DNA from: Prolixibacteraceae bacterium
GTDB lineage: Bacteria > Bacteroidota > Bacteroidia > Bacteroidales > Prolixibacteraceae
DNA: 64,000 bases
Assembly: GCA_019459485.1 (NCBI GenBank)
Contig: JAIBEZ010000074.1
Span: 1 to 64,000 of the forward strand
Direction of reading: 5' to 3'
The position numbers were made by a program, and so were the translations under genes. Of this stretch, positions 47,788-60,890 are shown piece by piece. Every line of letters starts with the position of its first letter. Positions within the stretch are counted from its first letter, which is position 1. The notes under the pieces were generated by a model, which ran no database searches, had not been told where the DNA came from, and saw nothing but the letters and a program-made list of their open reading frames with translations.

Positions 47788-50700
47788 ATGGCCCTTTTCC
47801 AAAGAACCGTAGAACAGAAATACCTTAAACAGCTCGATTCAGAGTTAATCAATTCGAAATATCTTGAGTTTAAATCCTATTTCGGGAATACCGACATTCA
47901 GGAAAACATTAGAAATAGCAAGGAGGAACAATATCAGGAAGGTTTCCTTCGTGAGTTATTCGTGAAAATATTGGGCTACAAACTAAATCCGACGCCCGGC
48001 TTTAATCTCACCACTGAGTACAAAAACATCAAGGACAGTAAGAAAGCCGATGGAGCCATCATCATTAACGAACGCGTAAAAGCGGTTATTGAGTTAAAGG
48101 GAACCAACACTACCGATTTAAGCAAAATTGAAACACAGGCTTTTGGCTATAAAAACAATCAGTCCGGTTGTGTGTATGTAATCACTTCCAATTTTGAAAA
48201 GCTGCGTTTTTACATCGACAATGCTATTGAACACATCGAATTCAACTTGTTTACCTTGTCGAAAACCGATTTCGGGATTCTTTACTTATGTCTTTCGTTC
48301 GAGTCGATTGAAAAGGGAATTCCAAAAAAGGTAAAAGAGGAATCACTGAGCCAGGAAGATGTCATTACAAGGAAATTGTATCAGGATTATTCGCTCTTTA
48401 AACGCGAGTTGCACCAAAACCTTGTTTCCCTCAATCCGCAATACGATTCGCTTACGCTTTTTAAGAAATCGCAAAAATTGTTAGACCGTTTTCTGTTCCT
48501 GTTTTTTGCCGAAGACCGACATTTGCTGCCGCCAAATTCCGTGCGTTTAATCTTAAATGATTGGAGAGACTTACAGGAACGGGATGTGGAAATACCACTT
48601 TACCAACGGTTTAAAAAATATTTCGAATACCTGAACACCGGTTACAAGGGAAAACGTTACGATGTTTTTGCCTACAATGGAGGTTTATTTAAACCCGACG
48701 AGGTACTTGACTCCATCCTCATCGACGATGAATTGTTATTCAAACACGCCTATAAACTTTCAGAATACGATTTTGTCAGTGAAATTGATGTGAATATTCT
48801 GGGGCATATCTTTGAAAACTCGCTAAACGAACTCGACGAAATCAATGCGCAACTGGCCGGAGAGGAAATTGACAAAACAAAAACCAGACGTAAAAAAGAC
48901 GGGGTGTTTTACACACCAAAATACATTACCAAATACATTGTTGAAAACACCGTTGGAAAACTTTGTAACGAAAAGAAAGCTGAACTTCAAATCATTGAAG
49001 AAGAATACACCACCGACAAAAAGCGGCAACTGAAAACCAAACAGGCACTGCTCGAAAAACTTAAAACCTATCAAAACTGGCTGTTGCAACTCACCATTTG
49101 CGACCCGGCTTGTGGTTCGGGGGCTTTCCTGAATCAGGCGCTCGACTTTTTAATTACCGAACACCGCTACATCGACGAATTACAAGCCAAAATTTTGGGC
49201 GTTCCTATCATCTTTAGCGACATTGAAAAAAGCATTCTGGAAAATAACCTCTTTGGAGTCGATTTGAACGAAGAGAGCGTTGAGATTGCCAAACTTTCGT
49301 TGTGGCTGCGTACCGCACAACCCAACCGCAAGCTGAACGACCTGAACAACAACATTAAATGTGGTAATTCGTTGATTAGCGATCCGGCGGTTGCCGGCAA
49401 CAAAGCATTTGATTGGGAGCGCGAATTCCCTCAAGTATTTGGTCGAAAAGAAATTGAAACACCATTCATTGAAGTACCCAAAGACAAAACACCCGACTAC
49501 CTTAAACTGATCAAAGAGAAATCGCTCGAAGCTCAATCAAAAGCAGAGCAAGCCTTGACATTGTCGAAGGAAGCTGCAGAGCTCTCAAAAAAGGTTTATG
49601 AATATGCCGAAAAGTTAGGTAATGTTTCAGACGACGACTCATTGTATGGCATTCGCAAAGGTGGTTTTGATGTGGTAATTGGAAATCCGCCTTACGTTCA
49701 GCTCCAAAGCATGGGAGAAATGAGTGAGAAACTTAAAAATTGTGGTTACGAAACATTCGATAAAGGAGCTGATTTGTATTGTCTTTTCACCGAACGCGGT
49801 TATAAATTGCTGAAGAATGGCGGCATTCAATCGTTCATTATGCCCAACAAATGGATGTTGGTCGCCTATGGTAAACCACTTCGAAAGTTCCTGTCGAAAA
49901 CTGGTTTGCGTCAGATATTGAACTTTGGCGACATCCAATTTTTCGCGGAAGCCACCACATACGTCTGCATTTTCGTAACACAAAAAAGTGAGCGAAAAGA
50001 CAATGTAAAAGTCTTGTCAATCAACCAGAAAACCTATCATGGTGATTTTATGACAGAGGTTGAAAGCAATTTATACGACTACCCCACTTCCAAATTTGGT
50101 GAAAGCGAATGGAGTATCCAGCCTTATAACGATGCCCAAAAGTTGGAGCAGATGAAATTAATGGGCACTGAACTGAAGAATTTACCGATAAACACTTATA
50201 GAGGCATCCTAACAGGTTACAATGAAGCTTTTTATATTGATGAAGAAACACGCCAAAGCCTAATTTATGCCGATGCCAAAAGTGCAGAACTCATCAGACC
50301 AATGGTACGTGGCAGAGATATTTCCGCTTATATAAATTCAGGCAGCGAATTTTTGATTAATGCACACAACGGCATAAAGGAGAAGAATCCACCGTTGCCG
50401 CCAATCAGGATAGATGATTACCCCGCGATAAAGAAACATTTGGATAGCTTTTACCCTTCGCTTGAAAAACGTGGAGATAAAGGCGATACACCATACAATT
50501 TGCGCAATTGTGCCTATTTAGAAGAATTTTCCAAACCCAAAATCATCTATCCAAACATGACTTCGGTTTTTCCATTCATGTACGATGAAAGTGGAATGCT
50601 GGGTAATGATAAAAGCTTTATCCTTACAGCACAAGATGATTCTATTTCATTACTGTTCCTCACGGCCCTATTTAATTCTTCATTGGCAAAGCTTTGGATT

Positions 50701-51126
50701 TGGCACAACTGTCCCGAACTTCAGGGCGGCACACGTGAAATCCGAAAAGTTTATTTCGAGCATTTCCCGGTTCCTCAGGCAAATGAAGAACAAACCGATA
50801 CACTTGCGAAATATGCTACAGAACGCGCCCAATTAACAATCAGCCTGCAAACCCTTTGCTCTAAATTTACCCGCAACATACAGCGTGAATACAATTTAGA
50901 AAAGCTCTCGGCCAAACTTGAAAATTGGTTTCAAATATCGTTTAAAGAATTTCTAAAGGAGCTCGAAAAGAGCAAAATAAAACTCACATTATCGCAAAAA
51001 GCCGAATGGGAAGATTATTTCCATCAGGAATCGAATAAAGCCCTTGCTATCAAACAACAAATTGATACAACCGACAAAGAGATTGACCAGATGGTGTATG
51101 GGTTGTATGGCCTGAGTGAGGAATAG
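47788..51126 (+). CDS. Type IIG restriction-modification enzyme (Eco57I-like, nuclease and methyltransferase in one chain)
   Basis: 1112 residues. N-terminal PD-(D/E)XK nuclease signs: Asp88 in SKKADGAII and Glu102/Lys104 in AVIELKGTN. A helical linker follows to about 430. The gamma-type N6-adenine methyltransferase region has motif I TICDPACGSGAFLNQAL (about residue 437 on) and motif IV DVVIGNPPYVQLQS (NPPY near 633). From about 730 to the end is the target-recognition region (FGESEWSIQPYNDAQKLEQM, LIRPMVRGRDI, FSKPKIIYPNMTSVFPFMYD, QGGTREIRKVYFEHFPVPQA). One polypeptide therefore reads, cuts and methylates its site, so no separate methylase is required. The specificity is not predictable. 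No transposase or integrase flanks it. Confidence 0.93.
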   Translation: MALFQRTVEQKYLKQLDSELINSKYLEFKSYFGNTDIQENIRNSKEEQYQEGFLRELFVKILGYKLNPTPGFNLTTEYKNIKDSKKADGAIIINERVKAVIELKGTNTTDLSKIETQAFGYKNNQSGCVYVITSNFEKLRFYIDNAIEHIEFNLFTLSKTDFGILYLCLSFESIEKGIPKKVKEESLSQEDVITRKLYQDYSLFKRELHQNLVSLNPQYDSLTLFKKSQKLLDRFLFLFFAEDRHLLPPNSVRLILNDWRDLQERDVEIPLYQRFKKYFEYLNTGYKGKRYDVFAYNGGLFKPDEVLDSILIDDELLFKHAYKLSEYDFVSEIDVNILGHIFENSLNELDEINAQLAGEEIDKTKTRRKKDGVFYTPKYITKYIVENTVGKLCNEKKAELQIIEEEYTTDKKRQLKTKQALLEKLKTYQNWLLQLTICDPACGSGAFLNQALDFLITEHRYIDELQAKILGVPIIFSDIEKSILENNLFGVDLNEESVEIAKLSLWLRTAQPNRKLNDLNNNIKCGNSLISDPAVAGNKAFDWEREFPQVFGRKEIETPFIEVPKDKTPDYLKLIKEKSLEAQSKAEQALTLSKEAAELSKKVYEYAEKLGNVSDDDSLYGIRKGGFDVVIGNPPYVQLQSMGEMSEKLKNCGYETFDKGADLYCLFTERGYKLLKNGGIQSFIMPNKWMLVAYGKPLRKFLSKTGLRQILNFGDIQFFAEATTYVCIFVTQKSERKDNVKVLSINQKTYHGDFMTEVESNLYDYPTSKFGESEWSIQPYNDAQKLEQMKLMGTELKNLPINTYRGILTGYNEAFYIDEETRQSLIYADAKSAELIRPMVRGRDISAYINSGSEFLINAHNGIKEKNPPLPPIRIDDYPAIKKHLDSFYPSLEKRGDKGDTPYNLRNCAYLEEFSKPKIIYPNMTSVFPFMYDESGMLGNDKSFILTAQDDSISLLFLTALFNSSLAKLWIWHNCPELQGGTREIRKVYFEHFPVPQANEEQTDTLAKYATERAQLTISLQTLCSKFTRNIQREYNLEKLSAKLENWFQISFKEFLKELEKSKIKLTLSQKAEWEDYFHQESNKALAIKQQIDTTDKEIDQMVYGLYGLSEE

Positions 51127-51980: not shown

Positions 51981-52260
51981 ATTCCGGGAGATTTGCCCTC
52001 AGGTATCCATCCCCAATTAAGATTCACTAGAATCTAAATACATTCATATACCATTCATTATAAGTATATTAAAAAGGCCACTGATGCATTATTCAACAGT
52101 GTATATTAATTAATCACTTAACTTATACAATTGATTATCTACGTCTTACATCAACAATGTTAATTCACTGTATATTTATTCAACACTTCCGCTTGTATAT
52201 TTTTCACTCATTACATTTTTATATATCTGTAATACTGACACTTACACAAATATTTCATGT

Positions 52261-52277
52261 TTGGCATTGTTGTTGAA
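52261..52277 (+). promoter_or_regulatory. Sigma-54-like -24/-12 promoter of the Hyb-like operon
   Basis: TTGGCATTGTTGTTGAA approximates the consensus TTGGCAC-N5-TTGCA, with the GG and the second T-T-G kept at correct spacing (TGGCAT-N5-TTGAA). It differs at the last base of the -24 box and in GA in place of GC at -12. A sigma-54-dependent regulator is encoded in the same locus (58985-60325), which makes the site more credible. Predicted start is near 52288, about 70 nt before the first ATG. Confidence 0.45.
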
Positions 52278-52357: not shown

Positions 52358-54037
52358 ATGAAAAATGTTTCAGTATTAATTATCGGGTTGTCACTTCTGT
52401 TTTTTTGCAATACAGGAATTTGCAATGCAACAACTGACGACCAAACAGGAGTTCAAGCCACAACCTCCGCAGAGAATACGTTAGAGATCACAAGTTCTCC
52501 GGAGTTGAGCAATCTGGCAACAAGTTGGGCTGCCGAATATGGCCGATTGAACCCGGGCATGAAAATCGTTGTAAACAGCGACGAAAATCAAACCATCCCG
52601 AGCACTAATCTTCGCTTCATCACAGAAGAGACTGACGAAGCAACATGGAAAATGGCAATTGGGCACGATGTGATTGTGCCGGTTTTTAATGCCAAAAATC
52701 CAATGATGAATGAGATTTATCGTCAGGGTATTTCCGCAGAAGAGTTTGCTCAACTTTTGTCCAATCCTGAAAAGAAGAATTGGGAAACCATGATTGATGG
52801 CGGAAAGAATGCATCCATCAATTACTACATTATTGACAATGCATCAGTGAAAGCGAACATTGCAAATTTCAGCAAAACAAATTCAGATGCAATGAATGGA
52901 ATGATGGTTGCAAACGCTGCTGAACTCATTTCGTCTATTCAGAAAGATATTTATGCCATTGGATTTTGCAAACTGACTGATATTCTCAATGCGACAACGA
53001 ATGAGTTAACCGAAAACATAAAACTTCTTCCGATCGATAAAAACCAGAACGGACGGATTGATAATTTTGAAAATATTTACACCAACCTGAATACTTTCAC
53101 CCGGGGAGTTTGGATTGGGAAATATCCACATGATTTATGCGGAAGTATATATGCAGCCTCTTCCACCAAACCAACAGATAAAAATACGCTTGCATTTTTA
53201 ACGTGGATACTTGCCGATGGTCAGCAATTTCTGAATAAAAACGGATACAGCGATCTCGCCAGTATCGAAAAACAAACAAACATCGATGATTTATCCGGAA
53301 CTGAAGTGGCAGTCGCTCAATCGAATAACAAGCCATTAACCGCACAAACATTCCTGCTAATTCTATCGGCAGTTGTAATTACTGCATCAATGATCGCATT
53401 GATGGTCAGGTATTTCAGGAATAAAAAATCGCTGGTATCTGATGAGGATTTCAATTTCACACCTGCATTTGATGAAAATTCGGTTTTGGCGCCCAAAGGC
53501 CTTTACTTCGATAAAACCCACACCTGGGCTTTCATGGAAAAAGATGGAACGGTAAAAGTGGGCATCGATGATTTCCTTCAACACATTACTGGCGCACTCA
53601 CCCGCATAAAAATGAAAGAACCCGGTGAAAGGGTACGAAAAGGGGAGAAAATCCTTACAATCATTCGTTATGGCAAACAATTAGACATTTATGCCCCGAT
53701 TTCGGGTACCATCAAAGAACAAAACCAAAAATTACTTGCTGATTCTTCGATCATTAATAATTCTCCTTTTGCTGAAGGTTGGGTTTACGTGATTGAGCCA
53801 ACGAATTGGCTGCGTGAGATACAGTTCCTGTTTATGGGCGAAAATTACAGGGAATGGCTTCAGGATGAATTTACCCGGCTGAAGGATTTTTTCGCTGTCT
53901 CTGCAAGGTCAAACACCCTTGTATATCAACACATCATACTTCAGGATGGAGGCGAACTTACCGACAATATTTTGGCTGATCTTGAACCAGAAGTATGGGA
54001 AGATTTTCAGACAAAATTTATTGACACCTCCAAATAG
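52358..54037 (+). CDS. Membrane protein joining a periplasmic-binding-like domain to a cytoplasmic GcvH-like domain
   Basis: 559 residues. A signal peptide (MKNVSVLIIGLSLLFFCNTG) precedes an extracytoplasmic domain (about 35-315) resembling phosphate-type periplasmic binding proteins: LEITSSPELSNLATSWAAEY, DVIVPVFNAKNPMMNEIYRQ, DIYAIGFCKL; it includes a D-K-N-Q-N-G-R-I-D calcium-loop-like stretch. One membrane helix lies at about 329-350. The cytoplasmic part (about 380-480) is a GcvH-like lipoyl-domain fold: THTWAFMEKDGTVKVGIDD, PGERVRKGEKIL, IYAPISG, NNSPFAEGWVYVIEP. In GcvH the lipoylated lysine is 4 residues before the D of DIY; here Lys440 is one position off and the ESVKA motif is absent, so lipoylation is doubtful. 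First gene of the operon. The combination is very unusual. Confidence 0.85.
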   Translation: MKNVSVLIIGLSLLFFCNTGICNATTDDQTGVQATTSAENTLEITSSPELSNLATSWAAEYGRLNPGMKIVVNSDENQTIPSTNLRFITEETDEATWKMAIGHDVIVPVFNAKNPMMNEIYRQGISAEEFAQLLSNPEKKNWETMIDGGKNASINYYIIDNASVKANIANFSKTNSDAMNGMMVANAAELISSIQKDIYAIGFCKLTDILNATTNELTENIKLLPIDKNQNGRIDNFENIYTNLNTFTRGVWIGKYPHDLCGSIYAASSTKPTDKNTLAFLTWILADGQQFLNKNGYSDLASIEKQTNIDDLSGTEVAVAQSNNKPLTAQTFLLILSAVVITASMIALMVRYFRNKKSLVSDEDFNFTPAFDENSVLAPKGLYFDKTHTWAFMEKDGTVKVGIDDFLQHITGALTRIKMKEPGERVRKGEKILTIIRYGKQLDIYAPISGTIKEQNQKLLADSSIINNSPFAEGWVYVIEPTNWLREIQFLFMGENYREWLQDEFTRLKDFFAVSARSNTLVYQHIILQDGGELTDNILADLEPEVWEDFQTKFIDTSK

Positions 54038-54080
54038 TTTTTCTCAGATTGCTCTCTAACAAACATAAACAACTAAAATT

Positions 54081-54941
54081 ATGAGTATCGATAGGCGAAT
54101 CTTTTTCAAAACAGCCGGACTTATTGGGATTTCCCTCGCTGTGGGTAAGAGTTTTGGAGCCACGACTCCAGAAAGTAGTGAAATCGAATTTTATGGAATG
54201 CTTTATGATTCAACTCGTTGTATTGGATGCAGAGCTTGCGAAAAAGCCTGTGCAAAGGCACATGATCTGCCCGAACCTCAGGGTGAATTGGTACCTGGTG
54301 TGAAAAGGGAAACCAGCGAATCGCAACGCAGCGTCATCAGCAAATTCGAAACAACAAAAGGCGAAGCATTCGTAAAAAACCAGTGTATGCATTGCAACGA
54401 ACCGGCCTGTGCCGCAGCTTGCCTGACAGAGGCAATGCTAAAAACGAAAGAAGGACCGGTAATCTGGAGAGAAGAAAAGTGTATGGGATGCCGGTATTGC
54501 ATGGTTTCGTGTCCGTTTGATGTCCCGAAATTTGAATATCACAGTGCTAATCCGAAAATTCTGAAATGCGACATGTGTTACGACCGGATTAAGAATGGCG
54601 AAATACCGGTTTGTGCCGAAACCTGCGGTGATGCCATTATTTTTGGAACACGCAGGGAACTTATAGCTGAGGCAAGACAACGAATCGCAGAAAATCCAAA
54701 CGATTACATCCATCAGATTTATGGGGAAGATACAGCAGGCGGTACCGGTTGGTTATACCTTTCACCTGTTCCGTTTAATGAATTGGGATTAAATACCAAA
54801 TTGCAAAACTCTTCCTATCCGGAGCTTACAAAGGGATTCCTTTACAGCGTTCCTTCTGTTGATTTACTTTTACCACCGCTTTTACTTGGAATCTACGCTG
54901 CCACTAAAAATAACCAAACTAAAGAAGACGAACATGATTAA
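54081..54941 (+). CDS. Tat-exported four-cluster ferredoxin (HybA/DmsB/NrfC-like)
   Basis: 286 residues. The start SIDRRIFFKTAG is a twin-arginine signal with the cleavable segment LIGISLAVGKSFG. Sixteen cysteines are arranged as four [4Fe-4S] sites: CIGCRACEKACAKAH, CMHCNEPACAAACLTE, CMGCRYCMVSCPFDVP, and CDMCYDRIKNGEIPVC with AETC. A C-terminal hydrophobic helix (LLLPPLLLGIYA) would anchor it in the membrane. These are the electron-transfer subunits of hydrogenase-2 (HybA) and related Nrf/Dms/Psr complexes. It overlaps the next gene by 8 bp, the quinone-reactive subunit, as expected. No catalytic subunit is encoded nearby. Confidence 0.93.
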   Translation: MSIDRRIFFKTAGLIGISLAVGKSFGATTPESSEIEFYGMLYDSTRCIGCRACEKACAKAHDLPEPQGELVPGVKRETSESQRSVISKFETTKGEAFVKNQCMHCNEPACAAACLTEAMLKTKEGPVIWREEKCMGCRYCMVSCPFDVPKFEYHSANPKILKCDMCYDRIKNGEIPVCAETCGDAIIFGTRRELIAEARQRIAENPNDYIHQIYGEDTAGGTGWLYLSPVPFNELGLNTKLQNSSYPELTKGFLYSVPSVDLLLPPLLLGIYAATKNNQTKEDEHD

Positions 54942-56184
54942 CCAGGCCTATCCTATTAACAGGGAAAATGAACGCAAAATTAACTGGCGATTTTTAGTCA
55001 GTGAATTAAAACCGAAAGGTAAATGGCTAACTCCTTTTAACATCATTTCAATTCCAATTATACTTTTGGGCTTGTTCCTGATTGTGATTCGGTTTTGGAA
55101 AGGTCTGGGCTCAATTACAAACTTAACCCAGGACGTTCCGTGGGGCTTGTGGATTGGTTTTGATGTAGTTACCGGTGTCGCATTTGCCGGAGGCGCCTAT
55201 GTGGTCACATTTATGGTATATATCCTGAACATGAAAAAATATCATTCCATTGTGAGGGTAACTGTGCTGAACGGATTTCTTGCATACGCATTTTACACCG
55301 GAGCTTTGCTGCTCGACCTTGGTCGCCCTTGGAACGTAATCAACCCAATGATTGGCAATAATTTCGGAACCAGTTCGGTACTGTTTCTGGTGGCATGGCA
55401 TTTTGTACTTTATATGCTTGCCCTACTGATCGAATTTTCACCTGCCATTGCTGAATGGATCGGATCCAGACGAGCACATAAAATACTTTCAGGAATGTCA
55501 ATTGGAGCTGTAATCTTCGGGATTACCTTATCTACGCTGCACCAATCGGGATTGGGCGCGCTCTATCTGATGGCAAAAGACAAAATCCATCCGCTGTGGT
55601 ATTCCGAATTTATTCCAATTTTATTTTTGGTGTCCAGCGTCTTTGCAGGATTATCGATGGTCATTTTCGAAGGTGCGATTAGTCACAAAGTATTTTTCAA
55701 CAAAATCAGTGATAAAAATAAGAAAGCCCAACATGGAATCGTCCACGGATTATCAAAAATATGTGCGGTTGCAATGTTTGCCTACTTCTGTTTACATTTC
55801 CTTGTGTTTATTCACGGAAAGAATTGGGCTTATTTGAATACCCCGATGGGTTACTGGTTTCTGCTTGAGATGTTGGGTTTTGTATTCGTTCCGATGATGC
55901 TGTTTTTTTACAGTTACCGCACCGGAGATATTCTGCTGATCCGGATAGCAGCTATTTTGACAATGATTGGCGTAATCGTTAACAGACTTAATGTTACCGT
56001 AATTGGTTTCAGATGGGATGCAGCAGTACCCTATGTTCCGTCGTGGATGGAAATTGTAGTTACACTTGCAGTTATTTTTACTGAAATCTGGATTTTCAGA
56101 TGGGTCATCCGTCGTATGCCAGTGCTCAGTGAATTCTCCTGGAAAGAAAAAAATAAAAATAAACCAGCTGTCACAAACCTTTGA
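54934..56184 (+). CDS. NrfD/HybB-type quinone-reactive membrane subunit
   Basis: About 416 residues from the ATG at 54934, which overlaps the stop of the ferredoxin gene; a longer upstream frame is not protein-like. About ten membrane helices. Typical features: LTQDVPWGLWIGFDVVTGVAF (W-G-L-W-I-G near helix 2 as in HybB), MKKYHSIVRVTVLNGFLAYA, LLLDLGRPWNV (D-L-G-R-P motif), STLHQSGLGALYLMAKDKIH, PLWYSEFIPILFLVSSVFAG and NRLNVTVIGF. NrfD/HybB proteins carry electrons between the extracytoplasmic ferredoxin subunit and the quinone pool. Closest to HybB of hydrogenase-2-type complexes, but the hydrogenase subunits are not present here. Confidence 0.93.
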   Translation: MINQAYPINRENERKINWRFLVSELKPKGKWLTPFNIISIPIILLGLFLIVIRFWKGLGSITNLTQDVPWGLWIGFDVVTGVAFAGGAYVVTFMVYILNMKKYHSIVRVTVLNGFLAYAFYTGALLLDLGRPWNVINPMIGNNFGTSSVLFLVAWHFVLYMLALLIEFSPAIAEWIGSRRAHKILSGMSIGAVIFGITLSTLHQSGLGALYLMAKDKIHPLWYSEFIPILFLVSSVFAGLSMVIFEGAISHKVFFNKISDKNKKAQHGIVHGLSKICAVAMFAYFCLHFLVFIHGKNWAYLNTPMGYWFLLEMLGFVFVPMMLFFYSYRTGDILLIRIAAILTMIGVIVNRLNVTVIGFRWDAAVPYVPSWMEIVVTLAVIFTEIWIFRWVIRRMPVLSEFSWKEKNKNKPAVTNL

Positions 56185-56208
56185 GACGACAGCATAAAAA
56201 ATAGAACT

Positions 56209-56961
56209 ATGGACGGATATACTTACACCAACATTTTCGAAACAAAAGGGATTGAATATGTGGCAATCGCTGTATTTTTTGTGATCCTGATTCCTTTCTG
56301 GCTGCTGTTGAACCGGCAGGTAAAATTGAAAAACCAGATTCAGAATACCCTGGGAACTCTCACAGCCAATACGTTAAAAATTCCGCACGGAATATTTTTC
56401 AGCAGGTTTCATACCTGGACCTTTCTCGAAAAGTCGGGAGTGGCAAAGGTTGGACTGGATGATTTATTGCTTCATATTACAGGCGAAGTGAAATTTAACC
56501 CGTATATTAAATCAGGCGAAAGAGTCAAAAAAGGAGATTTACTGGCTAAAATTGACCAGAAGGGAAAGGTTCTCAAGATATTCTCTCCTATTTCCGGCGA
56601 AATTGTAGAGGCTAATTCCGAACTTGCGAACAGTCCTGAGTTGTTGAACGAAGATCCATACTTGAAAGGGTGGATGTACAAAGTTAAACCTTCGAGCTGG
56701 GTGACTGATACTCATTCGTACTTTCTGGCCGAAGATGCAACAACTTACGCGATGCAGGAACTTGACCGGTTCAAGGATTTTCTGGCAAGCTCAGTTGGAA
56801 AATATTCTCCCCAGCCTTCAAACGTTGTATTACAGGATGGAGGTGAATTAATTGACAATCCGCTTTCTGAACTTCCGGATGAAGTATGGCAGGAGTTTCA
56901 GCAGGATTTTTTGAGTAAAAAAGTCATATGCCGGAAAAATAATTGGCTCCCGGAATCGTAA
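56209..56961 (+). CDS. Membrane-anchored GcvH-like protein
   Basis: 250 residues. An N-terminal membrane helix (about 14-34, EYVAIAVFFVILIPFWLLLN) is followed by a cytoplasmic GcvH-like fold, paralogous to the C-terminal part of the 559-residue protein: HTWTFLEKSGVAKVGLDD, LLLHITGEVKFNPYIKSGER, KIFSPISGEIVEANSELANS, LNEDPYLKGWMYKVKPSSW. The lipoylation position again shows Gly119-Lys120 with the lysine one residue off from the GcvH position. The C-terminus (VVLQDGGELIDNPLSELPDE) closely repeats the end of the other protein (ILQDGGELTDNILADLEPE), so the two share the same tail. Role unknown; it could bind the cytoplasmic side of the Hyb-like module. Confidence 0.85.
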   Translation: MDGYTYTNIFETKGIEYVAIAVFFVILIPFWLLLNRQVKLKNQIQNTLGTLTANTLKIPHGIFFSRFHTWTFLEKSGVAKVGLDDLLLHITGEVKFNPYIKSGERVKKGDLLAKIDQKGKVLKIFSPISGEIVEANSELANSPELLNEDPYLKGWMYKVKPSSWVTDTHSYFLAEDATTYAMQELDRFKDFLASSVGKYSPQPSNVVLQDGGELIDNPLSELPDEVWQEFQQDFLSKKVICRKNNWLPES

Positions 56962-57015
56962 TAATTTCATCCGAAAAAATCGTTATTAATTTGTTGATTA
57001 TTTGAGCGTTCGGAT

Positions 57016-57113
57016 GGAACTCCATGCCAGTAGATTTCCACTTCGAACTATATTTTCATTCTATTTTTGTGCAGCTATCTTTGAAATTAATTACAGCGGC
57101 ATGTTCGTTTCAT
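57016..57113 (-). repeat. ATGAAACGA element, long form (copy E4), reverse orientation
   Basis: Read on the reverse strand it starts ATGAAACGAACATGCCGCTG, has ATGCC (57102-57098) pairing with GGCAT (57028-57024) and ends at GAGTTCC (57022-57016). Similarity to the cca leader copy E3 continues to 56968, including the spacer and an ATG in matching position. The 40-codon frame that this ATG opens (56970-56848) runs antisense to the 3' end of the GcvH-like gene and is probably not a gene. The element therefore looks like a duplicated leader or a mobile repeat. Confidence 0.55.
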
Positions 57114-57133
57114 GATAAAAGAACTATTTCCTT

Positions 57134-57172
57134 ACAAGCAAAGCGGTGTGTATGTCACATCGCTTTGCTTGT
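57134..57172 (+). terminator. Terminator hairpin of the Hyb-like operon
   Basis: ACAAGCAAAGCG (57134-57145) pairs with CGCTTTGCTTGT (57161-57172), extended to 17 bp by GTGTG/CACAT with one G-T pair. The stem is very stable; the following T run is short, so it may act in both directions. Confidence 0.75.
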
Positions 57173-57298
57173 TTAAAGACATTATTCAATTTCAAAATAC
57201 TTTTTATCCGTAATTTATAAAACAAAATCGAATAGTTGAATCTGTTTTAAAATTTTGAGACTAATTTAGCATTCAGTTATTGATCAAAGAATAGTACC

Positions 57299-58972
57299 AT
57301 GAGTTGGTTCAAAAAAATAACCAGTAAAAATAGCGTTGGAAGTCCTATCATTAAAGGATATGTGAAATTCCGGTCTTCAATTTACGGAAGAGTGGTATTC
57401 ATAATTACAATTTCAGCAGTTTTTCTTTTCGTTTCATTCGGCGTCATTTTCAGATCTGTAAACGAAGAATACATGAAATCCGTTATCAGTGAAAACGGAA
57501 ACAACATCGGGTTTCTTGTTGAAGGGGCTTTGTATCGTTCAATGCTCGAAAACGACCGGACTTCCCTTCAGACTACACTTGATGTTATCAATACCATGAC
57601 AGGAATTGATGATGTAAACATGTATGATAACAACAACAATCTAGTTTATACTTCCATTTCTAACGATACTGACGATCACGGCGACCCCGACTGCATTAGT
57701 TGCCACAAGGATTTTGGCACCATGTTTTCTGCTGAAGAGAAATCGCACCGGATTATTGATGCCGACAGCGAATGCATTATGAATCCAAGTAACAACAAAA
57801 ACAGCAGGCATTTAATGATAAAATCACCCATTCTGAACAACAAATCCTGCTCAACAAGTTCGTGCCATGCCCACAGTCCAGAAGATGTGGTGCTTGGTTC
57901 GCTCATCATTAAAATGCCGCTCGAAGGGCTTGATTCGGCGCTCGAAAAATCGACCAAAGACTACACGCTACTGGCCGCCTTAATGACTTTTTTGCTCCTG
58001 ATTTTTCTAATATTGTTCACCAATAAAAAGATCAAAAATCCTTTAAATGAAATAATTAAAGCCAGCGAAGCGGTTGCAAAAGGCGACAAAAGTACCCGGC
58101 TGGAAATAAAACCACATCAGCTTTCGGATATGCGAATGGTTTCGTACGCGTTTAACGAAATGCTTGACAATCTGCAAACTGCAACCAACGAACTTCAAAA
58201 CTGGTCGCAACAGCTCGAATACAAAGTTCAGAAAAAGTCGGAAGAATTGGGGCAGGCACAAAACGAACTGATCAACATTGAAAGAATCGCCTCGCTGGGT
58301 AAATTATCGCTGTCGGTAGCTCACGAAATCAACAATCCGTTATCCGGAATTCTTATTTATACAAAATTGATTTATAAGCAACTAACCAATCAGCAACTGG
58401 ATCCGGCGAAGAAAGAGTCGATGCTGAAACATTTAAAGCTGATTGAAAATGAGACGAAACGCTGCGGCGATATTGTCAAAGGTTTGTTGGATTTCTCCAG
58501 AAAAGATCAGGATAATTTCGAACCAAAGCACCTTCATGAAATACTGATGGATACTTTCGAATTAATGTCTCATCCGATGAAAGTGGCAAATGTCAACTTT
58601 CTGTCTGATTTTGGCGCCAAAACTGACCTGATCTCTTGCAGCCCGAACCAAATCAAACAAATTTGTGTGGCCATACTTGTGAATGCTTCTGAAGCAGTTT
58701 CTGAAAACGGGGAAGTGCTTATTCGAACCCTGAACCCTGATCCTGAACACATCAGGATTGATATAGCTGATAACGGAGTTGGAATTTCGGAAGAAGACAT
58801 CCCCCACATTTTTGAACCATTCTTTTCGACCAAGGAGAAGGAAAGCGGCATAGGACTGGGTCTGGCCATTGTTCATGGCATTGTTCAGAGTCACAAAGGG
58901 AGAACCGATGTGAAATCGATACGCGGAAAAGAAACAACAATTTCAATAACTTTACCCTTGCTACGGACTTAA
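57299..58972 (+). CDS. Sensor histidine kinase with two heme-c-type motifs in its periplasmic domain
   Basis: 557 residues. A first membrane helix (about 30-52, VVFIITISAVFLFVSFGVIF), a periplasmic sensor part (53-225) and a second helix (about 222-240) precede HAMP (NEIIKASEAVAKGDKSTRLE), a coiled coil, HisKA and HATPase domains. The sensor carries C132-x2-C135-H136 (DCISCHKD) and C184-x4-C189-H190 (SCSTSSCHAH), the motifs for covalent heme c, the second of the rarer CX4CH kind. His342 lies in SVAHEINNPLSG; N-box NASEAV and G-box DNGVGIS are intact. It should report redox state or a heme ligand to the regulator encoded 12 bp downstream. The operon it controls is probably the one upstream. 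Confidence 0.92.
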   Translation: MSWFKKITSKNSVGSPIIKGYVKFRSSIYGRVVFIITISAVFLFVSFGVIFRSVNEEYMKSVISENGNNIGFLVEGALYRSMLENDRTSLQTTLDVINTMTGIDDVNMYDNNNNLVYTSISNDTDDHGDPDCISCHKDFGTMFSAEEKSHRIIDADSECIMNPSNNKNSRHLMIKSPILNNKSCSTSSCHAHSPEDVVLGSLIIKMPLEGLDSALEKSTKDYTLLAALMTFLLLIFLILFTNKKIKNPLNEIIKASEAVAKGDKSTRLEIKPHQLSDMRMVSYAFNEMLDNLQTATNELQNWSQQLEYKVQKKSEELGQAQNELINIERIASLGKLSLSVAHEINNPLSGILIYTKLIYKQLTNQQLDPAKKESMLKHLKLIENETKRCGDIVKGLLDFSRKDQDNFEPKHLHEILMDTFELMSHPMKVANVNFLSDFGAKTDLISCSPNQIKQICVAILVNASEAVSENGEVLIRTLNPDPEHIRIDIADNGVGISEEDIPHIFEPFFSTKEKESGIGLGLAIVHGIVQSHKGRTDVKSIRGKETTISITLPLLRT

Positions 58973-58984
58973 GGAAAACATATT

Positions 58985-60325
58985 ATGCCAAAAAAGATTT
59001 CCATATTAATCGTTGACGATGAAGAATCGGTAACAGATTCGCTTTACAACTGGTTTATCGAAGACGGATACCGCGTTGAATGTGCTGAAAATGCGAAGAA
59101 AGCATTGACGATGCTTGAATCTGACATTTACGACATCGTACTTGCAGATATCAAAATGCCCGGAATGGATGGTTTGGAAATGCTCAAGCGAATAAAATCC
59201 CTGCGGAAAGAATCCATTGTAATCATCATGACGGCTTTTGCCACGGTGGATACGGCTGTGCAGGCATTGAAAGACGGTGCCTTCGACTATGTGACAAAAC
59301 CGTTCGATCCCGACGATCTCTCCCACCTCATCCGTAACGCATCCAAACAAATTTCTTTGCTTGAAGAAAACGAAATTCTGAAAGAAAAAGTGGTTTCGCT
59401 GGAAAACGTGGAAGATCTGATTGGCAACAGTGAAGCCATGCAAAATGTGCTGAAGGAAATTGAAAGTGTTGCCCAGTCGAATGCTTCAGTAATAATTACC
59501 GGAGAAAGCGGAACAGGAAAAGAATTGGTTGCCAGGGCAATACATGCAAATTCGCCGCGCAAATTCTTCCCGATGGTGAGCGTGCATTGCGGCGCCTTGA
59601 GCGAAAGTTTACTGGAAAGCGAATTGTTCGGTCACGAAAAAGGTGCATTTACCGGAGCAGTTTACAATCGCAAAGGCCGGTTCGAGATGGCCGACAGCGG
59701 TACGATTTTCCTCGATGAAATTGCGACCATTTCACCAAAAATGCAGGTTGAATTGCTGCGTGTGCTCGAAAGCAAGAGCTTTGTGCGCGTGGGTGGAAAC
59801 AAGGAAATCACATCCGATTTCAGGGTAATTTGTGCCACCAACCGTGATTTGAAAAGCATGGTCGAAAAAGGGATTTTCCGCGAAGATCTTTTTTACAGGC
59901 TGAACGTGGTGAATATCAATGTTCCGCCTTTACGCGACAGGATCGAAGACATTCCGCTGCTGGTCGATTATTTCATAAAAAAGTACTGCATGTCGATGAA
60001 CAGGGCGCTTATTACAATCGATTCCTCCGCCTTGAAACGACTGGAAGAATTCCCTTTTCCCGGCAATATACGCGAACTTGAAAATATGATCGAGCGGGCA
60101 ATTGTAGTTGGAAATGGTAAAAAAATTACCCTCAAAGATTTGCCATTGGGAAAAACGGTCGTCAACACCACTTTTGAAAGCCTTGATGACCTTGAAAAGA
60201 ACCATATTTCTCAAATTCTCAGCAAATACAACTGGAACATTTCTGTTTCGGCCAAAGCGCTGAAAGTTGACAGGGTAACGCTCTACAACAAAATAAAGAA
60301 ATACGATTTGAAACCGGCCAAATAA
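58985..60325 (+). CDS. Sigma-54-dependent response regulator (NtrC family)
   Basis: 446 residues. Receiver domain (about 4-120) with acidic pocket VDDEESVT and phospho-acceptor Asp55 in LADIKMPGMDG; AAA+ domain with Walker A GESGTGKE (from Gly173), GAFTGA (from about 220) for contact with sigma-54, and Walker B region GTIFLDEIATI; C-terminal Fis-type HTH (NISVSAKALKVDRVTLYNKI). Phosphorylated by the heme-containing kinase, it would open sigma-54 promoters such as the candidate at 52261. Gene order kinase-regulator is conventional. Confidence 0.96.
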   Translation: MPKKISILIVDDEESVTDSLYNWFIEDGYRVECAENAKKALTMLESDIYDIVLADIKMPGMDGLEMLKRIKSLRKESIVIIMTAFATVDTAVQALKDGAFDYVTKPFDPDDLSHLIRNASKQISLLEENEILKEKVVSLENVEDLIGNSEAMQNVLKEIESVAQSNASVIITGESGTGKELVARAIHANSPRKFFPMVSVHCGALSESLLESELFGHEKGAFTGAVYNRKGRFEMADSGTIFLDEIATISPKMQVELLRVLESKSFVRVGGNKEITSDFRVICATNRDLKSMVEKGIFREDLFYRLNVVNINVPPLRDRIEDIPLLVDYFIKKYCMSMNRALITIDSSALKRLEEFPFPGNIRELENMIERAIVVGNGKKITLKDLPLGKTVVNTTFESLDDLEKNHISQILSKYNWNISVSAKALKVDRVTLYNKIKKYDLKPAK

Positions 60326-60362
60326 TCAGGATTCTATCTGATTCCTATTAATCCGTTTGTGA

Positions 60363-60890
60363 ATGAATCTGGAAAATATCACGTTAATTTCATTTGGCTA
60401 TTTCGAGAAAGAACTTCTTGAAATGGTTGTGAATGATGTGGAACGTGAATTTTTACTTCCGGTGAAAACGCAGGAAGGTCACATGGATTTAAGCGAATTT
60501 TACGACCCTTCCCGAAGACAATACGACGGGAACAGGCTGCTTAAGGAAATTGATTTCGGATATGGCGACGATACCATTAAAACACTCGGAATCTTCAATG
60601 TTGACCTCTTTATTCCCATTCTGACCTATATTTTTGGACAGGCATTTCTGAACGGACGTGCAGGCATCGCATCTATTTACCGTTTGAGAAATGAGCGCTA
60701 CGGAATAAAATCAGACGAAAAGGTTTTTGCAGACCGAATTCGCAAAGAAGTTATTCACGAACTTGGACACACTTTTGGATTAATACATTGCCAGAATCCC
60801 GATTGCGTGATGAGGTCGAGCACTTATGTGGAGGACATTGACCAGAAAAGCCATCATCTTTGCAATCATTGCAGATTAAAGCTGATTTAG
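60363..60890 (+). CDS. amzA: Archaemetzincin (zinc metalloprotease)
   Basis: 175 residues with the complete archaemetzincin signature: HELGHTFGLIHC with His132, Glu133, His136 and His142, then Cys143 in HCQNPDCVM, a Met150 turn, and a late C-x-x-C pair in HHLCNHCRLKL for a second zinc site. Archaemetzincins occur in archaea, eukaryotes and scattered bacteria; some cleave peptides but natural substrates are unclear. No signal peptide, so cytosolic. It follows the response regulator by 37 bp in the same direction, so it is probably co-transcribed, and a regulatory or maturation role is possible (inference). The symbol reflects family name only. Confidence 0.9.
   Translation: MNLENITLISFGYFEKELLEMVVNDVEREFLLPVKTQEGHMDLSEFYDPSRRQYDGNRLLKEIDFGYGDDTIKTLGIFNVDLFIPILTYIFGQAFLNGRAGIASIYRLRNERYGIKSDEKVFADRIRKEVIHELGHTFGLIHCQNPDCVMRSSTYVEDIDQKSHHLCNHCRLKLI

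Follow-up and report, generated by a model that had tools for sequence, protein, structure and literature searches.

A cassette of seven genes, all on the + strand, was found at positions 52358-60890 of the window, i.e., the whole 64,000-nucleotide stretch of Prolixibacteraceae bacterium DNA (genome G000) that was analysed. The genes encode, in this order, a GcvH-like protein with a periplasmic-binding-protein (PBP) part and a transmembrane (TM) helix (P1), a ferredoxin (FeS), an NrfD-type subunit, a second TM-anchored GcvH-like protein (H2), and the trio of a heme kinase, a sigma-54 regulator and an archaemetzincin. The cassette is real and conserved. The electron-transfer half is a variant of known pairs, and the half formed by the GcvH-like proteins and the diheme kinase is the surprising part. 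With moderate confidence, the cassette was interpreted as a self-contained respiratory accessory complex, in which an Hmc-type pair between quinone and periplasm would be combined with GcvH-like cytoplasmic adaptors and a diheme-kinase switch. The seven genes are listed below. The preliminary description of this DNA was correct as to their common strand and coordinates, and family searches agreed with it on their identity.

52358..54037, + strand: P1, with a signal peptide, a PBP-like domain containing an EF-hand-like loop, a TM helix and a GcvH-like domain without the lipoyl lysine
54081..54941, + strand: FeS, a tail-anchored 4x[4Fe-4S] protein with a twin-arginine translocation (Tat) signal, HmcB/HybA-like
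54934..56184, + strand: NrfD/HmcC/HybB-like subunit with 10 predicted TM helices
56209..56961, + strand: H2, with a TM helix and a GcvH-like domain without the lipoyl lysine
57299..58972, + strand: Cache sensor histidine kinase with diheme motifs (CXXCH at 132-136, CX4CH at 184-190)
58985..60325, + strand: sigma-54-dependent response regulator with a Fis-type helix-turn-helix (HTH), by family matches and GAFTGA
60363..60890, + strand: archaemetzincin (M54) metalloprotease, by an NF033823 match and its conserved motif

Conservation and co-occurrence of the seven genes

Conservation was evaluated in a close-relative sample of 101 genomes (the genome of the window and 100 relatives) and in a named-contig sample of the best 80 of 230 relatives; G and L numbers denote the genomes and loci compared. 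All seven genes occurred together in 52 of the 80 named-contig loci, 51 of which were collinear and one rearranged (L131). A further 17 loci were broken off by contig or record ends, and six carried only P1, kinase, regulator and protease (L101, L107, L114, L122, L148 and L151). Clustering of the open reading frames (ORFs) of 38 regions placed each of the seven families in 29-33 regions and any other family in at most seven, indicating that the flanks were unrelated and that the arrangement was more than chance. Moreover, the downstream neighbours of P1 recurred in the same order when the 101 genomes were searched for P1. Hence, the check on conserved synteny asked for in the preliminary description came out in its favour in the genomes compared. 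The carriers were Bacteroidota lineages, mostly metagenome-assembled genomes, and included the isolates Sunxiuqinia dokdonensis, S. indica, S. elliptica, Tangfeifania diversioriginum and Marinilabiliaceae bacterium A049. In G031 and G050, the trio lay at a separate locus from the P1-FeS-NrfD-H2 block, which fits control in trans.

The kinase sensor was detected in 34 of the 101 genomes, all of which also had P1, a P1 fragment (only a fragment in G004; in G099, P1 was reduced to the TM-GcvH part) or, in the draft G007, H2 and NrfD. P1 occurred without the kinase only in G013, G060 and G077, where the cassette ran into a contig end. The NrfD subunit was found in 33 of the 101 genomes, every match at E 1e-20 sat at the cassette, and NrfD without the kinase was confined to the same three contig-cut drafts. 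In 395 genomes of the same phylum, 52 had both the kinase and a GcvH-like protein, three had the kinase only (G147, G284 and G473), none had the GcvH-like protein only and 340 had neither; the related genomes in these counts are not independent samples. The GcvH-like set in this count was defined by E <=1e-22 and an ORF of at least 215 aa, criteria chosen after the list had been viewed, and G105 and G417 were excluded as canonical-size GcvH. From this pattern we infer that the kinase and the GcvH-like protein look like the core of the cassette, with the electron-transfer pair depending on the kinase and not the reverse.

The H2 profile was also run on the 395 phylum genomes, and longer GcvH-like proteins were found in deep-branching families; 20 regions were taken around the best matches and are not a random sample. 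In 13 of them (L152-L156, L158, L161, L164-L166, L168, L169 and L171), the genes followed the order GcvH, FeS, NrfD, H2 position, kinase, regulator and archaemetzincin. The same ordered block was cut by the region edge in L157, and L170 was also cut, while L159 and L160 had GcvH-GcvH-FeS-NrfD with the kinase not adjacent. The leading GcvH proteins of the deep regions were short and without a PBP domain, as judged by length and BLAST, and the protein at the H2 position was sometimes too divergent for Pfam (L157). In a variant type, found in L162, L163, L167 and the second loci of L157 and L161, GcvH proteins that include receiver-like stretches were combined with FeS, NrfD and the kinase. Receiver and GCV_H domains were shown by Pfam in both L157 proteins, and the receiver in L161, L162, L163 and L167 was assigned from a BLAST match to the regulator; in L163, FeS, NrfD and two receiver-GcvH-like stretches were located by tblastn. 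A cytochrome with 13 or 5 CXXCH motifs accompanied the variant in L157, L161, L162 and L167, and an extra protein with four CXXCH was carried by L152 and L165, that of L165 being cytochrome c554-type by Pfam. Plasmid searches for receiver-GcvH/FeS relatives returned only receiver-domain or HybA-type proteins among the matches listed.

Some neighbouring features were also recorded. Very large multiheme proteins (19, 16, 4 and 14 CXXCH) were encoded right after the receiver-GcvH genes at L162:9291-17839 and L167:11399-19783, and a cytochrome b561-type gene lay within the multiheme run of L162. Two tandem genes of this kinase family were found within one cassette at L049:13512-16848. In the window, a 1112-aa ORF at 47788-51126 was restriction-modification-like by eye, and its L070 homologue matched in two pieces.

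The electron-transfer pair and the search for a catalytic partner

FeS has 16 cysteines at four sites; 15 of them were invariant in 51 orthologues, and the other was kept in 49 of the 51. Of the FeS proteins, 30 of 31 close ones and 6 of 20 distant ones carried a Tat-like RRx[FL] motif. NrfD matched PF03916 with 58.2 bits, over the gathering score of 25.8. In NCBIfam, FeS scored 306.8 bits for HmcB (cut-off 420) and 224 for HybA (cut-off 263), and NrfD scored 398.2 bits for HmcC (cut-off 550) and 252.3 for HybB (cut-off 450). By score, the pair resembles HmcB/HmcC more than HybA/HybB, although it falls under all four equivalog cut-offs. The module had been called Hyb-like; the scores make it Hmc-like instead.

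The pair was compared with three known systems. In the Hmc complex of Desulfovibrio, an NrfD-type subunit likewise comes after a tail-anchored Tat 4x[4Fe-4S] protein, and this complex gave the best NCBIfam match for both window proteins; however, the multiheme cytochrome HmcA and HmcD, E and F were absent from the ORFs of the cassette in the window, which has the heme kinase with its sigma-54 regulator, the archaemetzincin and the GcvH-like proteins instead. HybA-HybB of hydrogenase 2 belong to the same protein families, but the window proteins scored under the cut-off and G000 was without a match to the NiFe-hydrogenase large subunit. According to the accessible text on modules of a tail-anchored ferredoxin and a HybB-like quinol oxidase (PMC10924467), a pair without a catalytic subunit likewise occurs there, also with a signal-less FeS variant. 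The modules in that text come with an FeFe hydrogenase or with one or two c-type cytochromes, and their flanking genes are not conserved, whereas seven genes are conserved here and cytochromes are exceptional. Tat hitchhiking of the signal-less FeS on the hydrogenase has been proposed in that text. No Tat hydrogenase partner for such hitchhiking was noticed here, and no FeFe hydrogenase was seen among the cassette genes of the window, FeFe hydrogenases not having been searched for genome-wide.

A catalytic partner was sought in the 101 genomes. The NiFe-hydrogenase large subunit (PF00374) had no match in G000 at 1e-10 and was present in 19 of the 101 genomes. Molybdopterin genes (PF00384) occurred in 68 of the 101 genomes, two of them in G000, and at 1e-20 none was found in the kinase-bearing G009, G031 and G045 (3 of 34) nor in the P1-bearing G013. 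A PhsA-like enzyme adjoined 3 of 81 loci (L079, L083 and L133), with a partial match at one end of L089 and a weak match in L112 (29% identity). In L038, L039 and L040, from three related genomes, a PhsA-like molybdoenzyme block lay just upstream of P1 and contained a 4Fe-4S protein, plus NrfD-like, YeeE-like and rhodanese-like genes by eye. ORFs with at least three CXXCH motifs were near 6 of 81 loci. As far as PF00384, PF00374 and PhsA-like adjacency reach, no catalytic subunit was regularly encoded with the cassette, as the preliminary description had supposed. Its claim of novelty was upheld for the seven-gene set, of which no description was recognised in the searched open full-text literature, but not for electron-transfer pairs without a catalytic subunit, which the text of PMC10924467 already describes.

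The DNA of the pair had its own pattern of identity. The FeS-NrfD segment at ~54.0-56.1 kb was 92-95% identical to G009 (90-97% to G014), and the adjoining P1 end and H2 were ~58-79% identical to G009. The pattern was reversed for G002, with 69-82% for FeS-NrfD, 81-90% for P1 and mostly 84-99% from H2 to the regulator. Because of this mosaic identity, the FeS-NrfD pair seems to have been replaced as one allele by recombination.

GcvH-like proteins, heme kinase and upstream elements

P1 and H2 matched Pfam GCV_H with 87.9 bits (residues 382-503) and 80.3 bits, respectively (cut-off 22.2), and both scored under the GcvH family cut-offs. The first part of P1 reached 24.7 bits for PBP_like_2, slightly below the 27-bit cut-off, and the P1 profile matched solved phosphate-binding proteins (best 4gd5, E 7.8e-9). 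By hydropathy, a TM helix lies at ~332-350 of P1 between the PBP and GcvH parts, and H2 has one helix near its N-terminus. Each helix is followed by a positively charged stretch, which suggests that the GcvH parts of both proteins are cytoplasmic. An EF-hand-like loop, D-x-N-x-N-G-x-I-D-x-x-E, was observed in the PBP domain at 53036-53071 (P1 residues 227-238); in 25 P1 rows, D227 and E238 were invariant and N229, N231, G232 and D235 were conserved in at least 90%, and a calcium site is possible at this loop.

The lipoyl site was evaluated by aligning the window proteins and 24 of 32 P1 and 20 of 31 H2 orthologues to the GcvH of the organism itself. The position of the lipoyl lysine held glycine in 25 of 25 P1 rows, and glycine in 17 and aspartate in 4 of the 21 H2 rows. 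A lysine was present one position past this site in all 25 P1 rows and in 17 of the 21 H2 rows, and this neighbouring lysine was also missing in several distant GcvH-like members. Lipoylation requires exact placement of the lysine. Hence, a lipoate-free adaptor is the likelier reading. The loss of the lysine, together with the receiver fusions found elsewhere, leads us to favour a regulatory or adaptor role (docking or sensing) for these domains over lipoyl chemistry. Profile matches in Pfam and PDB place the proteins in the GcvH fold family, together with the lipoyl proteins GcvH and LbpA (the latter as described in the available text of PMC6067878), from which they differ in being membrane-tethered or receiver-fused and in being without the lipoyl lysine.

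The kinase contained HAMP, HisKA and HATPase domains in the family search. Both CXXCH and CX4CH were invariant in all 42 sensor domains compared (the window, 24 of 32 close ORFs and 17 distant ORFs). The kinase profile matched 3b42, a heme-c Cache sensor, at E 7.7e-5. The CXXCH of 3b42 aligned with the CX4CH of the kinase, and the second kinase motif, CXXCH, was located ~50 residues upstream of this canonical heme position. The predicted sensor structure was Cache-like (predicted local distance difference test score 80.8), with no heme-Cache entry among the 50 matches listed for it. PF11845 matched 2 of the 42 members (best E 0.017), and the Mcp40H-20 sensor family matched 18 of 42 (best E 2e-5). 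The sCache_heme (DUF3365/Tll0287) sensors, e.g., GSU0935 (PDB 3b42), share the Cache fold and a covalent-heme motif at the same place; the kinase differs from GSU0935 in that CX4CH replaces CXXCH, an extra CXXCH lies upstream and PF11845 is rarely matched. By these matches, the sensor appears to be related to the sCache_heme family but to carry two hemes. This family was proposed in a 2026 preprint, whose accessible text reports properties of a nitric oxide (NO) sensor when the domain is fused to signalling parts (PMC12889525).

The regulator has receiver, sigma-54 AAA and Fis HTH domains, and GAFTGA was found in 31 of 31 orthologues, as expected of the NtrC type. The archaemetzincin scored 160.7 bits for NF033823, over the cut-off of 145, and its motif HExxHxxGxxHC-x4-CxM...CxxC was present in 30 of 30 close orthologues. 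Three non-coding elements were noted in the window:

52168..52186, + strand: candidate regulator-binding palindrome CTGT-N11-ACAC, a pattern match in the genome of the window, with its centre ~84 bp before the first base of the -24 element
52261..52276, + strand: sigma-54-like -24/-12 element TTGGCAT-N5-TTGA, by pattern, upstream of P1
57134..57172, + strand: strong hairpin in the gap that separates H2 from the kinase (RNA fold -28 kcal/mol; z -7.5 relative to 200 shuffles)

The hairpin is a possible terminator or attenuator and was absent from the list of predicted terminator-like sites. An unsupervised word count of 99 regions upstream of P1 gave GGCA-N6-TTGA in 69 and TGTT-N9-AACA in 66, relative to 0.3 and 1.0 for shuffles. 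The TTGA form of the promoter is a post hoc motif from this count and was then checked against controls. With fixed patterns, 97 P1 upstream regions contained the promoter in 66, the palindrome in 75 and both in 56. The corresponding values were 0 and 1 (promoter and palindrome) for 81 kinase upstream regions, 20, 50 and 6 for 1940 random windows drawn from these loci, some of which may cover the P1 upstream region itself, and 2, 14 and 0 for 1940 shuffles. The palindromes were mostly ~-88, -157 and -175 from the -24 GG, with smaller groups at -63 and -77. The element upstream of P1 is a probable sigma-54 promoter. Given this promoter and the phased palindromes before P1, the regulator probably controls the P1-FeS-NrfD-H2 operon, and the earlier suggestion that the heme kinase adjusts expression gained support as to control by the kinase and regulator.

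Other targets were searched for with strict patterns. Promoter and palindrome together matched only the operon itself in the genome of the window and nothing in four other genomes, and the promoter pattern alone gave 17 matches relative to 26 for the reversed control. The strict palindrome matched, in the genome of the window, the cassette and one site upstream of a NuoE/NuoF-like operon (by eye), where no promoter was seen; one non-cassette site was found in G045. The palindrome pattern missed 5 of 10 whole genomes, cassettes included, and is therefore insensitive. With such insensitive patterns, no second target of the regulator was found in the genome of the window. A canonical-looking -24/-12 sequence, TTGGCAT-N5-TTGC, was noted at ~1500-1610 of L174 (G000:C27:22285), upstream of a Lon-like protease gene (by eye).

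Proposed mechanism and competing explanations

In the proposed mechanism, for which we infer quinone use and the direction of electron flow, FeS and NrfD would act as an Hmc-type pair through which electrons pass between the quinone pool and a partner in the periplasm that is encoded outside the cassette. The GcvH-like barrel-sandwich domains of P1 and H2, which are without the lipoate lysine, may serve as structural or regulatory adaptors at the cytoplasmic face, and P1 of Bacteroidales would contribute a periplasmic binding-protein domain. The diheme Cache kinase would read a periplasmic redox or gas signal and phosphorylate the sigma-54 regulator, which may then bind the palindromes upstream of P1 and turn on the P1-FeS-NrfD-H2 operon. 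The archaemetzincin gene accompanies those of the kinase and regulator, and its product probably trims a component or removes it.

Several observations weigh against this interpretation. Four of the 80 loci contained only P1-FeS-NrfD-H2, with the trio not adjacent (L078, L117, L129 and L150; the record of L078 stops 0.9 kb past H2), and L088 had P1-FeS-NrfD-H2-kinase with the regulator and protease absent within the next 5 kb. The kinase was kept without NrfD genome-wide in 4 of 34 genomes (G004, G030, G065 and G099) and in 6 of 80 loci, indicating that it also has a job without the complex. Furthermore, 14 of the 20 deep-branching FeS proteins were without the Tat signal and started just before the first cluster (L152-L156, L159, L160, L165, L166, L168, L169, L171 and one each in L157 and L161); the tail segment was kept and the predicted topology of NrfD was unchanged relative to the Tat group. 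Thus, the extracytoplasmic partner suggested in the preliminary description may not be general, and the proposed scheme cannot hold unchanged in these lineages. With regard to the control of the operon, the -12 dinucleotide was GA or GG in all 68 tabulated sites and not the canonical GC, so that the sigma-54 label is probable and not certain. A canonical TTGC scan was discarded, as it matched 6 of 96 P1 upstream regions with 2.9 expected from shuffles, which is about chance; the same scan matched 12 of 81 kinase upstream regions (3.3 expected) at scattered positions. Both motifs were found in 7 of 14 split, reduced or rearranged loci (L054, L114, L117, L129, L131, L148 and L151), one motif was found in five (L055, L057, L061, L101 and L107), and L045 and L122 had neither promoter nor palindrome. 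It is by location that the palindrome is tied to the regulator.

Four other explanations were considered. The complex may be part of a sensor and not of respiration, with FeS-NrfD passing quinol electrons to the two kinase hemes, by which the kinase would read the state of the quinone pool directly. Within the cassette of the window, no periplasmic electron acceptor other than the kinase heme motifs is encoded, both motifs are invariant in the 42 rows, and NrfD lacked the kinase only in the three contig-cut drafts of the 101 genomes; however, the kinase persisted without NrfD in four of its 34 genomes, the Tat signal was missing from most deep-branching FeS proteins (14 of 20) and a separate multiheme cytochrome is encoded at some loci, and this explanation was considered unlikely. 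A similarly low probability was given to a cassette that serves an enzyme encoded elsewhere, such as a PhsA-like molybdoenzyme or one of a class outside the searches made, for instance an FeFe hydrogenase. The PhsA-like block upstream of P1 in L038, L039 and L040, the PF00384 genes in 68 of 101 genomes and the FeFe hydrogenase that accompanies the related pair in other organisms according to the text of PMC10924467 are in its favour, but the block has electron-transfer genes of its own, the kinase-bearing G009, G031 and G045 had no PF00384 match at 1e-20, and adjacency was limited to 3 of 81 loci besides the partial (L089) and weak (L112) matches.

The cassette may also be a stress response first, in which the diheme Cache kinase senses NO or an oxidant, with the archaemetzincin and P1 as the chief output and the pair as an optional add-on. 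This would be consistent with the alignment of CX4CH with the CXXCH of 3b42, with the NO-sensor behaviour of signalling heme-Cache domains in the preprint text (PMC12889525) and with the loci that keep the trio and P1, or the GcvH part of P1, in the absence of FeS-NrfD-H2; it was nevertheless judged improbable, as most loci have FeS-NrfD-H2, which is strongly conserved, and the strict, insensitive patterns revealed no further promoter with these sites in the genome of the window. Far less probable is a lipoylated redox carrier as in the sHdr/LbpA sulfur pathway: the GCV_H matches above the Pfam cut-off and the lysine one place after the lipoyl position (25 of 25 P1 and 17 of 21 H2 rows) agree with it, but the lipoyl position itself holds glycine in every P1 row and glycine (17) or aspartate (4) in the 21 H2 rows, several distant members are also without the neighbouring lysine, and the scores fall under the GcvH family cut-offs. 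A bolder version, held to be rather unlikely, takes the kinase as the natural acceptor: quinol electrons would pass via NrfD and FeS to the two Cache hemes, and the lipoate-free GcvH-like domains, tethered or receiver-fused, would provide the signalling output in the cytoplasm and dock back onto the complex. If this were true, the GcvH-like domains would represent a novel type of signal-transduction domain, and the complex would work as an electron-wired meter of the quinone pool.

Under the preferred interpretation as a respiratory accessory complex, orphan HybA/HybB-like pairs gain a testable home. The isolates that carry the cassette (Sunxiuqinia and Tangfeifania) make its function directly testable. 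Moreover, a diheme-motif sensor kinase is linked throughout the phylum to GcvH-like proteins without the lipoyl lysine, and the receiver-GcvH fusions suggest that the GcvH fold was recruited into bacterial signalling.

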